NCBI GenBank assembly: GCA_026397955.1
Contig: JAPLTV010000020.1
Location: 1 to 64,000, forward strand
Length of the DNA stretch: 64,000 nt
Reading direction: 5' to 3'
Source of the DNA: Verrucomicrobiota bacterium
GTDB lineage: Bacteria > Verrucomicrobiota > Verrucomicrobiia > Opitutales > UBA953
Part shown: in pieces, positions 35,439 to 48,135 of the stretch
Layout of the letters: every line of letters begins with the position of its first letter
Numbering within the stretch: position 1 is the first letter of the stretch
Program-made: the position numbers and the translations under genes
The notes under the pieces: model-generated
What the model was told of the DNA's origin: nothing
The model's database searches: none
Seen by the model: only the letters and a program-made list of their open reading frames with translations

Positions 35439-39239
<3,801 letters not shown>

Positions 39240-39274
39240 GCGTCCGACGTAACCACCCCCAGACCTTAACAGAC

Positions 39275-42200
39275 ATGATTCACCCGGAGCACACCCCCGA
39301 GTTCACCGCCAACGAGACGAAGGAACAGTCCTTCGATTTCGTCTCCATCTCGATCGCCTCTCCCGAGGAGATCGTCCAGTGGACGGGCGAGCAGTTCCTC
39401 GACGAACTCGACGAACACGGCAACCGCAAGGTCAAGGGCCTCAAGGAAGTAAAGAGCCCTGAGACCATCAACTACCGCTCGTTCAAGCCTGAGCCGAACG
39501 GCCTCTTCTGCCAGCGCATCTTCGGACCGGTCCGCGACTACGAATGCTACTGCGGTAAGTACAAGAAGGTGAAGTACAAGGACGTCGTCTGCGACAAGTG
39601 CGGCGTCGAAGTCACCGTCTCCCGCGTCCGCCGCGAGCGCATGGGCTATATCCGCCTCGCCATCCCGGTTTCCCATATCTGGTTCCTCAAGAGCATGCCC
39701 AGCCGTCTGTCGCTGATGCTCGACATGACCACCCGCCAGCTCGAGCAGGTCATCTACTACCAGAAGTACCTGGTCGTCGACCCGGGCGCCACCGGCATGG
39801 AAGAGAAGGAACTCCTCGACGAGGAATCCTACCGCCGCGCCGTCGAACAGCACGGCCCTGACGCCTTCAAGGCCCGCATGGGCGCCGAAGCCCTCCAGCA
39901 GCTCCTCAAGAAGATGGATCTCGCCTCCACGGTCGAGAACCTCCGCGACCAGCTCCGCTCCACGCGCTCCAAGCAGATCAAGAAGAAGATCGCCCGCCGC
40001 ATGAAGATCATCCAGGGCTTCCTGGCTTCCGGCAAGCGCCCTGAGCACATGATCCTGACGGTGCTGCCGGTCATCCCGCCGGACCTCCGTCCGCTCGTTC
40101 CCCTCGAAGGCGGCCGTTTCGCCACCTCCGACTTGAACGATCTCTATCGTCGCGTCATCAACCGCAACAACCGCCTGAAGCAGCTCATCCAGATGAAGAC
40201 GCCGGACGTCATCATCCATAACGAGATGCGCATGCTCCAGGAAGCCGTCGACGCTCTCCTCGACAACGGCCGCCACGGCAAGCCGGTCAAGGATCGCGAC
40301 CGTCAGCTGAAGTCCATCTCGGACATGCTGAAGGGCAAGCATGGCCGTTTCCGCCAGAATCTTCTCGGCAAGCGCGTCGACTACTCCGGTCGTTCCGTCA
40401 TCGTCATCGGTCCCGAGCTCAAGCTCAACCAGTGCGGTCTCCCGAAGAAGATGGCCCTCGTCCTCTTCGAGCCCTTCATCATCCGCCGCCTCAAGGAACT
40501 GGGCTTCGCCCACACCGTCCGCGGCGCCCGCAAGCACATCGAGCAGAAGAAGCCCGAAGTTTGGGATATCCTGGAAGAAGTGACCAAGGGTCACCCGGTG
40601 TTCCTCAATCGCGCGCCGACGCTCCACCGTCTGTCCATCCAGGCCTTCGAACCCATCCTCATCGAGGGTGATGCGATCCGCCTCCACCCGCTCGTCTGTA
40701 CCGCTTACAACGCGGACTTCGACGGTGACCAGATGGCCGTCCACGTCCCGCTGTCCCTGGAGGCCATCATGGAGTGCAAGCTCCTGATGATGTCCACGAA
40801 CAACATCTTCTCGCCGTCCAGCGGTAAGCCGATCCTCACGCCGTCCCAGGACATTGTGCTCGGCGCCTACTACCTGACGCTTGAACCCGCCGACAAGCCG
40901 GCGGCCAACACCCACCTGCCGGTGCTCGGCTCCGTGTCTGAGGCGACTTTCGCCGAAGCCGAAGGCTCGCTCCACCTGCATGACTGGGTCCGTTTCGCCA
41001 ACCCCGACTTCAACCGCAAGACGGTCCACGGCGAAGCCACTGGCAGCACGATCGTCACCACGGTCGGCCGCATCATCTTCAACACCATCTGGCCTGCTGA
41101 ACTCGGCTTCTTCAATGAGACCGTGAAGAAGGGCCAGCTCGGCGACCTGATCCTGAAGACCTACAAGCATTGTGGCCGTGAGGCTTCAATCCCGGTCCTC
41201 GACGCGCTCAAGGAGACGGGCTTCCGCATCGCGACCAAGGCCGGCATCTCCATCGGCGTGAATGACATGATCTACCCGAAGGAGAAGGAAGGCCTCGTCC
41301 GCGAAGCCACCGCCAAGGTCCGCGAATTCCAGCGCCAGAACGAATCCGGTACGATCACCAACGACGAACGTCGTAATAAGGTCGTCGACACCTGGTCCGG
41401 CGCTACCGACGCCATCGCGCAGTCGGTGTACACGACGCTCTCGCAGTCCGCGAAGGTGGCCGGCGTGAAGAAGGGCGATCCTCGCCACTCCCACCGCATG
41501 CTCATCAACCCGGTCTACGTCCTCATGGACTCCGGTGCCCGTGGTAACAAGGCTCAGGTGAAGCAGCTTTGCGGCGCCCGAGGCCTGATGGCCAAGCCTT
41601 CCGGCGAAATCATCGAACGCCCGATTCTCTCGTCCTTCCGCGAAGGCCTCTCGGTCCTCGAGTACTTCATCTCGACGCACGGCGCCCGTAAGGGTCTGTC
41701 CGACACCGCGCTGAAGACGGCCGACGCTGGTTACATGACCCGTAAGCTTTGCGACGTGGCCATGGACGTGATCGTCACCGACTCCCGCGACGTCGCCCCT
41801 GGCTCCGAAGTCATCACGCTCGGCGACGCCGCCCTCGGCCGTCACCTGGCTGCTGATGTCCCGAATCCGTCCGGCGCCGTCAAGGTCCTCGCCAAGTCCG
41901 AAGCTCCTCTCACCGAAGAGCTCATCGCCAAGCTCCGCGACGCCGGCGTTGACCGCGTCCACGTCCACATCCCCAACGGCGTGTGGAAGACCCCGATCTA
42001 CGACGGTGACGAACTCTTGGTGTCTCTCTCCGAGCGCATCGTGGGCCGCTGCCCGTCCGAAGACGTCACGAACCCGCTCAATCCTTCCGAAGTTATCGTG
42101 AAGGCCGGCGTGCTCATTGACGAAGTCGCCGCCAAGCGTATCGAGACCGTCGGTCTCGACCGCGTGAAGGTCCTCTCTCCGCTCACGCACATGAACGTGA

Positions 42201-43609
42201 ACGCGATTCCGCCCACCTCCTACGGCCTCGATCCTTCGACCGGCCGCATGGTCGAACGCGGCACCGCGGTCGGCATCATCGCCGCCCAGTCCATCGGCGA
42301 GCCGGGTACCCAGCTTACGATGCGTACGTTCCACATTGGTGGCGTCGCTCAGCTGAAGACCCCGGAAATCAAGTCCAAGGGTAAGGGCCTCGTCCAGTAC
42401 GTCGACCTCACCACGGTCTCCGTCGGCGACAAGTTCATCGCCGTCAACGGCAACGGTTCGATCCGCCTCCTCAACGAGGCCGGTTCTCCGGTCGAGGAAT
42501 ACCGCATCGTCGCCGGCTCTGTTGTCGGCGTCGAGGACGGCAAGCCGGTCGATAAGGGCGTCCTCATCGCCGCCTGGGACCCTAACTCCACCCCGATCAT
42601 CGCCAACGGCGACGGCAAGATCCGTCTCGTCGATATGATCTCTGGCGTGACCTTCACCGAAGAGCGCGACCCGTCGAACAACACGTTCTACAAGTCCGTG
42701 ATCGAGCACTCCGACGAACAGAATCCCCAGATTCAGATCATCGGAGCCAACGGCAAGGAAGTCGGTTCCTTCTCAATCCCTGCCGGCGCTCGCGTCGAAG
42801 TGGACGAAGGCGACAAGGTCAGCCGCGGCTCCATCGTCGCCAAGATCCCCCGCCAGGCCGCCAAGACGCAGGACATCACCGCTGGTCTGCCGCGCATCTC
42901 CGAGCTCTTCGAGGCCCGCCCTCCGAAGGACGCCGCCGAGATCGCCAAGATCGACGGCACGGTCCGCTTCGAGCCTTCCATCCGTGGCAAGAAGCGTCTC
43001 GTCATCGCCGACTCCATCGGTCGCGAAGAAGAGCACCTCATCCCGCATGGTAAGCACATCATCGTCGCCGCTGGCGACAAGGTGAAGCAGGGCCAGGTCC
43101 TCACCGACGGCGCCGTCGACCCGCACGACATCCTCGACATCCTGGGCCAGTCCAAGGTGCAGGATTACCTCATCACCGAAATTCAGAAGGTGTACCGCAC
43201 TCAGGGCGTCGTCATTAACGACAAGCACATCGAAATCATCGTCTCGCGCATGCTCCGCAAGGTCCGCATCACCGAGCCGGGCGACTCCGATTACCTCTGG
43301 GGCGAACAGGTTGACCGCACTCTCCTCGCGGAGAATAACCGCTCCATCAATGAGCGCGGTGGTCAGATCGCCGAGTCCGAGCCGATCCTCCTTGGCATCA
43401 CCAAGGCCTCCCTCGAGACCGAGTCCTTCATCTCGGCCGCCTCCTTCCAGGAGACGACCCGAGTCCTGACCGACGCCGCCACGATGGCCAAGCGCGACAA
43501 CCTGACCGGCTTCAAGGAGAACGTGATCATGGGTCACCTCGTCCCTGCCGGCACCGGTCTGCCTGCTTACCGTCGCATCCGCGTCTTCCAGACCCCGACC
43601 CCGGCCTAA
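39275..43609 (+). CDS. rpoC: RNA polymerase beta-prime subunit, second zinc site lost
   Basis: 1444 residues. The N-terminal zinc ribbon is intact ([23 protein letters not shown], residues about 90-112). The catalytic Mg-binding motif [12 protein letters not shown] is at about residue 480 and [24 protein letters not shown] lies in the trigger-loop/bridge-helix region. The second zinc site, normally C..n..CX6CX2C, has none of its cysteines: the last three positions read [17 protein letters not shown]. Just before it (residues about 850-965) a GR..aeDV.NP..GLDRV module appears twice. Otherwise the length and order of domains are normal. Confidence 0.97.
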
Positions 43610-43742: not shown

Positions 43743-44987
43743 ATGTCCCGCTTCCTCATCGCTGCCTCGGCTCTTACCGCTTCCGCCCTGGTCCAGGGCG
43801 CTAACTGGATTCCTTCTTCGCCGCTCATCCAAGTCGGCAACGACTGCGATATCTACTTCGACTCCGCTGCCAGCCTCGAAGTCACCGATAACCTTTACTC
43901 GAGCGCCACCAAGACGTCCGCCACGAGCTGGATGGTCACCCCGGGCTTCCTGCTCGAATACGGCAAGGACTCGGCGCTTTCCGCGACGATCTCGGCCAAG
44001 CGTACCTTCGTGAACTTCACGGACAAGGCCTTGTCCGACCTCGAGGACTCCCGCGACGCTCTTTCCGCCGGCATTCGCTTCGCCGACGGCGGCCCGCTCT
44101 CGTTGTCCGTCGACTCGTCCTATCGCGTGACCGCCCGTAATGACGACCTGCAGATGCAGGGACTCGGCGGCCTCCTGGGCGCGACCCTCGTTCGCCAGGC
44201 AAGCTACGCCCACTCCTTCCGTGCCGACTATAAGCTGACCGAGAAGCTCAGCGTCGGCCTCGGTTACGCGAATTCCTACAACCATTACCTCGATCCGGTG
44301 AAGACCGGGACCTCGGGCAGCTACGTCTATAACACCAATACGCTGACCGAGCTGAACACGAAGTCCATGCCCCTCAGCTTTGATTACCAGGCCTTTGAGA
44401 AGCTCAGCTTCGGCCTGGTCCTGCAGCATGATGTGACCGATTACTCCGCCGCCCCTTATTACAGCCAGGCCGGCTCACCTCGCCCGGCGCTCACGTATAA
44501 GCAACTCGTGAAGAACTTCGCCGGACTCACCGCCAAGGGTCAGCTCTCCGAGTCGGGCAAGCTCAACGGCAACGTCCGCGTGGGCTATTCTCAGTATCAC
44601 TTCGATAGCGCCGCCAATGACTCGGACCTTTCCTACTCGGTCAACCTAAGCCACACGCTCACTGAGCGCCTCAGCCACTCGCTGACGCTTTCCCGCGATG
44701 TCGCGGCTTCCTCGACCAACAGCCAGATGGCGACGAAGAACTACACCTACGGCGTCGCCTACAACGCCTCGGAGGATCTTAACTTCAACCTCTCGGCCAC
44801 CAAGAGCGACGTGCACGCCAGCACCAGTCAGGTCGATACGTACGCCTATACCCTGGGCGCGGATTACAAGTACTCGAAGCACCTGACCTTCCAGGCCAGC
44901 TACAGCCTGAACGACTCCACGGCCAGCTCCGCTGCTTCGACCTACACCTCGAACACCCTCACGCTTTCGGCGGCTTTCCGCTACTGA
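43743..44987 (+). CDS. Outer-membrane beta-barrel protein of an exopolysaccharide locus
   Basis: 414 residues with a signal peptide (MSRFLIAASALTASALVQG). The rest is a run of alternating hydrophobic/polar strands, with ADYKLTEKLSVGLGYANSY-type strand pairs repeated and a final LTLSAAFRY that ends in an aromatic residue, as outer-membrane barrels do. It resembles the EpsL/BB2-type barrels found beside Wza- and Wzc-like genes, which follow here. A role as polysaccharide exit pore is inferred from context. Confidence 0.72.
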   Translation: MSRFLIAASALTASALVQGANWIPSSPLIQVGNDCDIYFDSAASLEVTDNLYSSATKTSATSWMVTPGFLLEYGKDSALSATISAKRTFVNFTDKALSDLEDSRDALSAGIRFADGGPLSLSVDSSYRVTARNDDLQMQGLGGLLGATLVRQASYAHSFRADYKLTEKLSVGLGYANSYNHYLDPVKTGTSGSYVYNTNTLTELNTKSMPLSFDYQAFEKLSFGLVLQHDVTDYSAAPYYSQAGSPRPALTYKQLVKNFAGLTAKGQLSESGKLNGNVRVGYSQYHFDSAANDSDLSYSVNLSHTLTERLSHSLTLSRDVAASSTNSQMATKNYTYGVAYNASEDLNFNLSATKSDVHASTSQVDTYAYTLGADYKYSKHLTFQASYSLNDSTASSAASTYTSNTLTLSAAFRY

Positions 44988-45057: not shown

Positions 45058-45846
45058 ATGTCTTCCGTCTTGAAAAGCCTCCTAGGAGCTTTCTGCGCCG
45101 TTATCCTGCTGACTGCGTGCGCCTCTTCAGGGTCTGCGCCGGTCACCTCCGCCTCTTTCGAGCCGGAGAATGTCCTTACCATCGGGCGTGGGGCTTCCGA
45201 TCCTTCTGCGGTGCCTGCTCCCGTCGCAAGCGCCCCGGTTGCGGCTGAGGCCGCTGGCAGCACGCCCGTCGCCGCCGCCACCCCGGCCCCCGCTACAGAT
45301 TACGCCGTGGCCACGCCGACGACTTTGCCCGACCCCGTAGGCAGCCAGAACAGCTACCGCCTCCGCGCCCGCGACTTCATCCGCGTCCTGGTCATCAACG
45401 AACCCGACACGCAGATCGAACGTCGCATCAATTCCGACGGCACGGTCGACATTCCCTTCCTCAAGAAGCTGGTGCCGGTCGCCGGACTGACGCTCACCCA
45501 AGCCCAAGTGGAGCTCTCGAACCAGTTCCGGGTCTTTTTCAAGAAGCCGCAGGTCACGATCTCGATCGTCACCTACGCCGAGCGTCGCGTGTACGTCTCC
45601 GGTTACGTCGGTAAGCCCGGCCCGGTATCCATCCCGCCCGAAGAGACGCTCACCCTCGGCCGGGCTCTTTCCATGGCTGGCGGCGTGCTACCCCGCGGCA
45701 ACCGTTCCGACGTGACGATCAAGCGCAGTCGTGACGGATCTCCGTTCGTGATCTCTAAGGACGTCCGTCGGATCGACGATGGCGACGAGCCGGACTTCAT
45801 CCTGGAGGACGAAGACCAGATCTACGTCCGCGACAGCCGTATCTGA
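45058..45846 (+). CDS. Polysaccharide export lipoprotein (Wza-like)
   Basis: 262 residues. Lipoprotein signal with lipobox LTAC (cysteine at about residue 21), then a 65-residue Ala/Pro-rich linker. The poly_export domain starts at YRLRARDFIRVLVINEPDTQIERRINSDGTVDIPFLKKLVPVAGLTLTQAQVEL. An SLBB-like part follows, RRVYVSGYVGKPGPVSIPPEETLTLGRALSMAGG. Shorter than E. coli Wza (379). Members form the outer-membrane/periplasmic channel for capsule or exopolysaccharide. Nine nt upstream of the wzc-like gene. Confidence 0.9.
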   Translation: MSSVLKSLLGAFCAVILLTACASSGSAPVTSASFEPENVLTIGRGASDPSAVPAPVASAPVAAEAAGSTPVAAATPAPATDYAVATPTTLPDPVGSQNSYRLRARDFIRVLVINEPDTQIERRINSDGTVDIPFLKKLVPVAGLTLTQAQVELSNQFRVFFKKPQVTISIVTYAERRVYVSGYVGKPGPVSIPPEETLTLGRALSMAGGVLPRGNRSDVTIKRSRDGSPFVISKDVRRIDDGDEPDFILEDEDQIYVRDSRI

Positions 45847-45855
45847 TCCCTTTCC

Positions 45856-48135
45856 ATGGCCACTCCGGAACCCTCGTCTGACAATCGTCCGCCCGAACCT
45901 GCGCGCGGCGGCAACCGCGGTTACGGTTCCTACGGCAGCTATGGCAACTATGGCGGTGGCAACGGCGGCAACGGTTACGGCAATTACGGCTCCTACAACC
46001 GAGGCGGGGCAGGGGAGGGTAATCCCATCCAGAACTACCTGCTGATGCTCCGTGAGCGTTACTGGTGGATCCTGCTGTCGACCCTCGTCTTCGTCACCCT
46101 CGCCCTCCTAAATACCTACAACACCGTCCCGGAATACCGCGCGACCGGCCGACTGCGCGTCTTCCGCCTCGCCCCGACCATCAACGGCGGATCCTCCGCG
46201 GCCGACGACAATTTCAAGATCGTCTCGAACGACGACTTCTTCACGGCCGTCGAGGCCATGCGGAGCGCCAACATCATCGAAGGTGTCTCGAAACGCCTCA
46301 CCGCCACCGAGCTTAAGTCCGTCCTGGAGCCTTATCAGGCGGGCAACATCTTCTCGGGTCCGCTGACCCCGCAGGAAGTCTTCGCCAAGCAGCGCGGCAT
46401 CAATCCGCAGCGCCAGACCTTGGTGATCAATGTCGATTTCACCCATCCGAATCGGGACCTCGCCCGGCAGGTCGCCCGTCTCTTCTGCGATTCAATCAAG
46501 AAATACAGCGAAGACGATCGCCTGATGGTGACCAATCCGCTCGTCGAGAAGGCCCGCATCGAGATCGAGACGCTCGAGGACAAGGTCCGCCGCCTCTACG
46601 AGCAGAAAAACGACCTCATCAAGAACCAGAAGCTCCTCTCCATCGCGAAGGACACCAACACCCTCACCACGGAACGCTCCGTGCTCGTGAAGGATCGCGA
46701 AGAGACGCGTAAGCAGATCGACGAGAACGAGATTCTGGTCTCGGTCATCGCCAGCTACGAGAAGGAGAACCGTCCGCTCGGCGACATTCCGCAGATTCGC
46801 GCCGACAGCGATGTCGCCGCCGCCCAGACCGCCATCAGCGCCTCGAAGATCCGCGTTAGCCAGATGACCGAGACTTACACGGACCAGCACCCGAAGCTCG
46901 TCGCCGAAAGGGAGGCCCTCAAACAGCTCGACCACCAGCTCAAGGAGGCCGTGGGTCAGGCGATCAAGACCCGGCGCAGTGCGCTCGAAAACGCCAAGGC
47001 CCGCCTTGAGGCGATTCTGCGCAACCTCCTCGCGAAGGAGGAGGAGTTTTCCAAGCTGCAGGCCGCGAACGTCGAACTCGAGCGCGTCGACAAGGATATC
47101 AAGGCCAGCGAGGAATTCCTTAGCCGAATGAAGCTCAGCTACGAGGAGGCCAAGCTTCGCTCCTCCACCTCTGGCACGAGCACCTCGATCAGCATCCTCG
47201 ACGCCCCCTCCGTCTCGGACAAGCCGATCAACAAGAACTACTATTTCAACTCGCTGGTCGGGATGGGCTCAGGCCTGCTCTTCGGCATCGTGCTGATCAT
47301 CGCGATCGGCACCTTGGACGACCGCATCAAGTCCGCCAAGGATGTCGAAGGCTCCTTGGGGCTGCCCCTGATTGGCACCATTCCGCGCGTCGCGAACACC
47401 GCCGGTCCGGATCGCGCCTTGCTCGCGCGCCAAGACAAGGACCGCATCGCCACGGAAGCGGTCCGTTCCATCTACTCCGCCCTCAAGGTCAACCCGGCCG
47501 TCTCAAAGGCGCGTGTCTTCCTGGTGACCTCCACTCGACCCAGCGAAGGTAAGACCTTCGTCGTGACGAACCTGGCGCTGATCTTCGCCCAACACTCGGA
47601 GCGCGTGCTCGTCATCGACGCCGACCTTCGCCTTCCGAATGTCGGACCTTCCCTCGGTTTCACGGGTGACGGCGGCCTGAGCAAGTGGTTCAACGCCGAG
47701 ACGTCCCTCGACGAAGCGATCGTCCGCGATGTCGCTCCCGGCTTGGACGTCCTGCCGGTCGGACTGAGCTGCAAGAACCCGACCCAAGTCATCAACAACC
47801 CTAAGTTCCTCGCGATGATCGACGAACTCCGCGGGCGTTATGACCGCATCTTCATCGACTCACCTCCCATCGGCGCCGTTTCCGACGCCCTTCACCTCCT
47901 TCCCAAGGTCGACGGTGTCCTCTACGTCGTCCGGTACAATACGGTCAACCTGCGCAACGCGACCTCGTGCCTGGCCCGTCTGCGTGAAGCCCAAGCCCCG
48001 ATGCTCGGAGTCGTGCTCAATGCGATGTCCCTCCGGATGGCCTCCGCCTACACGGACACTTACGACTCCTCCTATCGGAAGTATTACGTCGACGAACCGC
48101 GCGGCCAGGCTGGCCCGGAGTCGAAGCAATCCTGA
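45856..48135 (+). CDS. Wzc-like polysaccharide co-polymerase with BY-kinase domain
   Basis: 759 residues. The first 55 residues are a Gly/Tyr/Asn-rich low-complexity region (repeats of GSYG, GNYG, NGYG). A membrane span at about 72-91 (WILLSTLVFVTLALL), the Wzz periplasmic domain with coiled coil (about 200-450) and a second span (VGMGSGLLFGIVLIIAIG) follow. The cytoplasmic tyrosine kinase has Walker A STRPSEGKTFV, Walker A' VLVIDADLRLPN and Walker B IFIDSPPI. The C-terminus has a tyrosine cluster (YTDTYDSSYRKYYVD) for autophosphorylation. Controls chain length and export of a surface polysaccharide with the Wza-like protein. Confidence 0.93.
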   Translation: MATPEPSSDNRPPEPARGGNRGYGSYGSYGNYGGGNGGNGYGNYGSYNRGGAGEGNPIQNYLLMLRERYWWILLSTLVFVTLALLNTYNTVPEYRATGRLRVFRLAPTINGGSSAADDNFKIVSNDDFFTAVEAMRSANIIEGVSKRLTATELKSVLEPYQAGNIFSGPLTPQEVFAKQRGINPQRQTLVINVDFTHPNRDLARQVARLFCDSIKKYSEDDRLMVTNPLVEKARIEIETLEDKVRRLYEQKNDLIKNQKLLSIAKDTNTLTTERSVLVKDREETRKQIDENEILVSVIASYEKENRPLGDIPQIRADSDVAAAQTAISASKIRVSQMTETYTDQHPKLVAEREALKQLDHQLKEAVGQAIKTRRSALENAKARLEAILRNLLAKEEEFSKLQAANVELERVDKDIKASEEFLSRMKLSYEEAKLRSSTSGTSTSISILDAPSVSDKPINKNYYFNSLVGMGSGLLFGIVLIIAIGTLDDRIKSAKDVEGSLGLPLIGTIPRVANTAGPDRALLARQDKDRIATEAVRSIYSALKVNPAVSKARVFLVTSTRPSEGKTFVVTNLALIFAQHSERVLVIDADLRLPNVGPSLGFTGDGGLSKWFNAETSLDEAIVRDVAPGLDVLPVGLSCKNPTQVINNPKFLAMIDELRGRYDRIFIDSPPIGAVSDALHLLPKVDGVLYVVRYNTVNLRNATSCLARLREAQAPMLGVVLNAMSLRMASAYTDTYDSSYRKYYVDEPRGQAGPESKQS

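Follow-up and report, generated by a model that had tools for sequence, protein, structure and literature searches.

The locus

The window, a 64,000-nucleotide stretch of DNA from a Verrucomicrobiota assembly, carries, in this order, rpoB, rpoC, a gene for a BBP2-type outer-membrane beta-barrel (EpsL-like; 43743–44987, plus strand; PF10082), a gene for a Wza-like outer-membrane polysaccharide export (OPX) protein (45058–45846, plus strand; PF02563, E 6e-15), the gene for a BY-kinase (45856–48135, plus strand), and an M48 peptidase gene. The OPX gene is located directly upstream of the kinase gene, as it is in nearly all loci from the order, and provides the kinase with a Wza-type partner. The BBP2 gene is found upstream in many relatives; rpoBC and the M48 gene are neighbors in the nearer relatives only. 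In four other families whose loci were read, a gene for a TPR protein lies divergently beside the export module, and in two of these four a Sua5-type gene is located downstream of it.

The genome contains one initiating sugar-phosphate transferase, located elsewhere, and three LMW tyrosine phosphatase genes, none of them on the contig of the kinase. The PF01943 flippase had no match in the assembly of this genome (G000) and matched in 13 of 14 control genomes; since the assembly is 94% complete, this result may reflect an absence or a gap. PADLOC gave no match, and a role in defence was discarded. Opposite rpoB and rpoC, the minus strand has very long open frames (35469–38918 and 39266–42709); these are most likely mechanical by-products of codon usage.

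A Wzc-like kinase with an N-terminal tyrosine tail

The first-pass annotation had described a Wzc-like kinase with a Gly/Tyr-rich, FUS-like N-terminus made of repeated units, lying in the cytoplasm ahead of the first membrane span. The identity of the kinase was confirmed: the 759-residue protein is a Wzc-like BY-kinase and polysaccharide co-polymerase (PCP-2a). It scores 126.4 bits against TIGR01007, the NCBIfam family for the polysaccharide-biosynthesis tyrosine autokinase (cut-off 108), and in a PDB profile search the profile of its orthologues matched the Wzc structure 7nhr with an E-value of 7e-63. In a Foldseek search with the AlphaFold model, which was built with 52 orthologues, the top matches were full-length Wzc 9r62 (E 2e-29) and 9r68; CapA1B1 aligned to the kinase domain with a target-normalized TM of 0.95. 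No other BY-kinase match was detected in the 2.45 Mb assembly of this genome.

The model has the PCP-2a layout, with two membrane helices around a large periplasmic domain and the kinase at the cytoplasmic C-terminus, in agreement with Foldseek. From the N-terminus, it comprises a tail predicted to be disordered (residues 1–56, 45856–46023), a juxtamembrane helix (57–68, 46024–46059), transmembrane helix 1 (69–89, 46060–46122), a periplasmic Wzz-like and coiled-coil domain (90–461, 46123–47238; the Pfam Wzz match is weak and below the cut-off), and transmembrane helix 2 (462–487, 47239–47316). Since these two membrane helices lie between them, the tail and the kinase domain are on the same side of the membrane, as the annotation had held.

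The kinase domain, which is modeled with confidence, contains Walker A (TSTRPSEGKT, residues 558–567, 47527–47556), Walker A' (VLVIDADLR, 584–592, 47605–47631), and Walker B (RIFIDSPP, 664–671, 47845–47868). Residues K566, D588, D590, R592, D668, P670, and P671 are invariant in 52 orthologues. The C-terminal tyrosine cluster consists of Y732, Y736, Y740, Y743, and Y744 (48049–48087); Y732, Y740, Y743, and Y744 are near-invariant among the orthologues. Carriers of the tail retain both the catalytic residues and the C-terminal cluster. The E-x2-R-x2-R oligomerization motif, which is common in the BY-kinase family and was not counted here as defining, was not found; where Wzc has this motif, the window's kinase has EAVRSIY (residues 534–540, 47455–47475). 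Most tail-bearing orthologues have E-x2-R-x2-Y or H, and Y also occurs in several tail-less paralogues. Apart from its tail, the protein is a typical representative of an established family.

The reading frame starts with MATPEPSSDNRPPEPARGGNRGYGSYGSYGNYGGGNGGNGYGNYGSYNRGGAGEGNPIQNYLLMLRERYWW, and GYGSYGSYGNYGGGNGGNGYGNYGSY falls within the N-terminal 56 residues. The coordinates given previously for the Gly/Tyr-rich stretch (45868–46020) are right and correspond to residues 5–55; its dense core spans residues 22–48 (45919–45999), with tyrosines at positions 23, 26, 29, 32, 41, 44, and 47. Within 26 residues of the core, 7 are Tyr and 11 are Gly; elsewhere in the protein the shares are 3.0% for Tyr and 4.7% for Gly (binomial P about 8e-6 and 1e-8, respectively). 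This is the densest Tyr stretch among all long open frames of the window, and within the 2.45 Mb assembly the coding pattern for YGxYGxYG is confined to it, which rules out a genome-wide habit of Gly-Tyr tails. The tail combines a Tyr-rich low-complexity composition with predicted disorder, the pLDDT being below 50 at residues 1–12 and 14–54.

The low-complexity domain of FUS is rich in Ser and Gln, rich in Tyr, and nearly free of Phe. The term FUS-like therefore holds loosely: like the FET-type domains (FUS, EWSR1, TAF15), the tail is of low complexity, Tyr-rich, and nearly Phe-free, but the orthologue cores, with about 41% Gly and 33% Tyr and little Ser or Gln, are nearer to a plain Gly-Tyr repeat. 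There is no homology between them, and the tail is much shorter and sits on a bacterial membrane kinase.

Conservation of the tail across the order

Relatives were gathered from the genus, order, class, and phylum; apart from one scan for close relatives, the survey covers in effect one phylum. The orthologue set comprises 122 distinct sequences with an intact N-terminus from at least 16 families, with identities down to 28–30%. Every one of the 122 tails contains at least three tyrosines (median 9, range 3–17). GY or YG steps number three or more in 121 of these tails and two in the remaining one, L205. The shortest tail has 36 residues and the longest 109, with a coefficient of variation in length of 0.31 versus 0.02 for the body of the protein. 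Order and length vary among orthologues while composition stays constant; of the repeated units noted at first, the composition and the identity of the tyrosines are conserved, whereas a fixed unit is not. In contrast, 16 paralogous kinases of the same order have a single Tyr summed over the tail region, and most of them come from genomes that also encode a tailed copy.

Some records deserve mention. Two contigs appear to be mislabelled or contaminated: L042 (CALPIW020000009.1), titled Polynucleobacter meluiroseus, carries a kinase 85% identical to that of the window, and L052 (CALQLO010000016.1), titled Akkermansia muciniphila, carries one 76% identical. One match on contig 1 of G272 falls inside an open frame with a listed length of 200,335 residues, which is probably masked sequence, and the orthologue on contig 6 of G220 (L106) is interrupted by stop codons.

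Selection and tyrosine specificity

Among six close relatives, pN/pS was 0.107 for the tail, 0.137 for its core, and 0.081 for the rest of the protein. Over the 15 pairs, the tails differ by 227 synonymous and 72 non-synonymous changes; because synonymous change far exceeds non-synonymous change, the tail must be translated and constrained, and it is under purifying selection. The same in-frame conservation, together with an ATG kept in close relatives, rules out a wrongly chosen start codon. In a simulation of a neutral tail, most tyrosines were gone by one substitution per site. The Gly and Tyr codons of the tail are mixed. We conclude that the one BY-kinase detected in the genome has a real N-terminal tail, which is translated, maintained by selection, and predicted to be disordered. 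The first-pass annotation had named conservation in homologues as a check; this check came out in favor of the tail, which the order has kept under selection and which turns up again in other lineages.

In 52 representatives with less than 70% identity, the tail cores contain 477 Tyr, no Phe, and no Trp. The Tyr to Phe ratio in the C-terminal phospho-acceptor cluster is 341:3, and in the other Tyr-rich columns of the folded part it is 654:157. Because these sequences share ancestry, Fisher P values for the comparison serve as a guide to scale only. In this respect the tail resembles the acceptor cluster and is unlike the tyrosines of the folded part. However, Tyr is also a stronger sticker than Phe in condensate-forming sequences (PMC12677899), so that the ratio fits phosphorylation and clustering alike, the two possible roles that the first-pass annotation had put forward.

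The number of tyrosines in the tail drops as the number in the C-terminal tail climbs (Spearman -0.28, P 0.002, uncorrected for kinship), which weakly backs an exchange between the two tails.

Tails in other lineages

In trees calculated from the folded part, the tailed orthologues form one fully supported clade, with a clade of tail-less paralogues from the same order as its sister. A second, strongly supported clade from another class, the relatives of G213, is separated from this first lineage by tail-less sequences. These are also PCP-2a BY-kinases with Tyr-rich N-terminal tails; unlike those of the first lineage, their tails are built from SPxYYG or PAYG units, and each of the 30 that were parsed has at least six Tyr. 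Gly-Tyr tails also occur in two sequences that branch in isolation, L089 and L268, and the closest relatives of L268 are without a tail. An invention confined to the order is ruled out by the tails in these two sequences and in the relatives of G213.

The tree requires at least four gains or losses of the tail. Given the second clade and the two isolated sequences, the tail was either gained repeatedly or lost often. Because the units differ between lineages, repeated gain appears to be the simpler reading of these sequences; an old tail that was lost many times is a possible alternative.

The spacing of the tyrosines also differs. In the first lineage it is 2–4 residues, with YY far below and spacings of 3–4 above the level in shuffled tails, while in the relatives of G213 YY pairs are enriched. 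A fixed YxY register acting as a ratchet is thus unsupported. Several of the G213 relatives (L302–L341) also carry long C-terminal GYGYGY runs, for example, L328 and L335.

Comparison with Wzc and a possible function

The model places a helix at residues 57 to 67, directly before membrane helix 1, and the predicted disordered tail joins it without a break. This helix is the equivalent of Wzc alpha1 (residues 17–30; PMC8285477, PMC11986026): in the profile alignment position 70 pairs with Wzc residue 33, and ungapped extension sets E67 opposite Wzc D28. Wzc of E. coli K30 and K-12 (PDB 7NHR, 9EXO, 9R62, 3LA6) is built alike: a periplasmic domain between two membrane helices, Walker A, A', and B in the cytoplasmic kinase, a C-terminal tyrosine cluster, and alpha1 before the first span. 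Since its alpha1 starts at residue 17 (PMC8285477), little sequence lies ahead of this helix in Wzc, for which no Tyr/Gly tail has been described; the window's kinase has 56 residues there, 7 of them Tyr.

Phosphorylation in Wzc takes place between neighbors: the C-terminal tyrosines of one subunit reach into the active site of the next, and the octamer becomes looser as phosphates are added one after another (PMC11986026, PMC8285477). A pocket that selects tyrosine, and is proposed to exclude phosphotyrosine, orders the phosphorylation; alpha1 rests against alpha23, at the root of the tyrosine tail, and relays the phosphorylation state to the membrane helices (PMC11986026). VpsO of Vibrio cholerae and CapA/CapB of Staphylococcus aureus are kinase-domain relatives (PDB 6U1Q, 4JLV), and oligomerization of VpsO is reduced when its C-terminal cluster is phosphorylated (PMC7485978). 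The "N-terminal extension" of VpsO (473–502) is a different segment, since it follows membrane helix 2 and leads up to the kinase (PMC7485978), whereas the tail described here precedes membrane helix 1.

As the disordered tail begins at the end of alpha1, it would be well placed to reach the tyrosine pocket or an active site. For this reason we judge, tentatively and with slightly less than even confidence, that the tail provides the octameric kinase ring with a further multisite tyrosine module, an additional substrate that the ring itself most likely phosphorylates and that tunes its stability. The tail would project from the cytoplasmic end of alpha1, and its tyrosines could enter the active site or tyrosine pocket of a neighboring subunit, to be phosphorylated alongside the C-terminal cluster or in competition with it. 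The added charge might loosen the ring or clusters of rings; phosphatases would reset the tail, and the number of phosphates may tune chain length or export.

This module is favored by the retention of the tail across the order under purifying selection, by the 477:0 ratio, by intact catalytic motifs and a C-terminal cluster in proteins whose tail joins the alpha1-equivalent helix, by the similar tails in separate lineages, by the three LMW phosphatase genes of the genome, and by the inverse relation of the two Tyr counts. On the other hand, that correlation is weak and uncorrected for kinship, the spacing of tyrosines differs between lineages, contrary to a single docking register such as YxY, no LMW phosphatase gene lies on the contig of the kinase, and the preference for Tyr over Phe is equally expected of condensate-forming sequences (PMC12677899). 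The broader proposal, that BY-kinases of sugar export have repeatedly evolved a ring-phosphorylated N-terminal Tyr tail and that both tails set the stability or clustering of the ring, and thus polymer length, is plausible but more speculative.

In the open literature searched, we found no earlier description of an N-terminal Tyr or Gly/Tyr tail on BY-kinases, and searches combining Wzc with condensates and Verrucomicrobia with Wzc gave no prior account of it. Relative to that literature, what is new is a tyrosine tail at the N-terminus that is kept throughout an order and recurs elsewhere. A tail kept by a whole order and probably arisen more than once suggests a second control module that had not been described before. 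As a model for how polymer length is controlled, the Wzc ring has so far had its regulation explained by one C-terminal tyrosine tail; a tail at the opposite end, strict for Tyr and attached to the signal-transmitting helix, points to a regulatory input that is invisible in the E. coli Wzc structures.

Alternative explanations

The main rival to phosphorylation by the ring is that the tyrosines act as stickers: the tails of neighboring octamers would associate weakly and gather the export machines into membrane clusters or condensates in which the kinase is concentrated, with phosphorylation secondary if it occurs. We consider this possible, although doubtful. The composition is of the sticker-and-spacer type and is kept while order and length vary, the tyrosines of the first lineage are evenly spaced, and Tyr outdoes Phe in this role, as described above; yet the tails are short, some have only three Tyr, and in the second lineage the tyrosines are paired rather than evenly spaced. 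Because condensation can trigger the autophosphorylation of eukaryotic kinases (PMC13430976), phosphorylation and clustering may act together. The tailed kinases and their tail-less paralogues, some of them in one genome, form a natural set for addressing phosphorylation versus clustering in bacteria.

It is unlikely that the tail serves to dock a phosphatase, polymerase, glycosyltransferase, or cytoskeletal partner through many weak YG-type motifs that raise avidity. Several short YG motifs, a conserved composition, and the constant OPX/BBP2 export module beside the gene would suit such a role, but the sequence implies no partner, the motif drifts (GYG, SYGN, YYG), and the wider neighborhood differs between families.

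It is very improbable that the tail is a flexible spacer without specificity, or low-complexity sequence maintained through repeat slippage, with no function that depends on tyrosine: the wide variation in length and the repeats, which invite slippage, are outweighed by the excess of synonymous change per site, the mixed codons, the rapid loss of Tyr from a simulated neutral tail, the absence of Phe, and the paralogues without a tail, and a neutral or slippage origin is ruled out by the pN/pS values, codons, and paralogues.

Beyond the tail, the juxtamembrane helix has a tyrosine of its own, Y61 (46036–46038), which is shared by 115 of the 122 orthologues and replaced by Phe in none; its role could be that of a further acceptor or of a structural residue.
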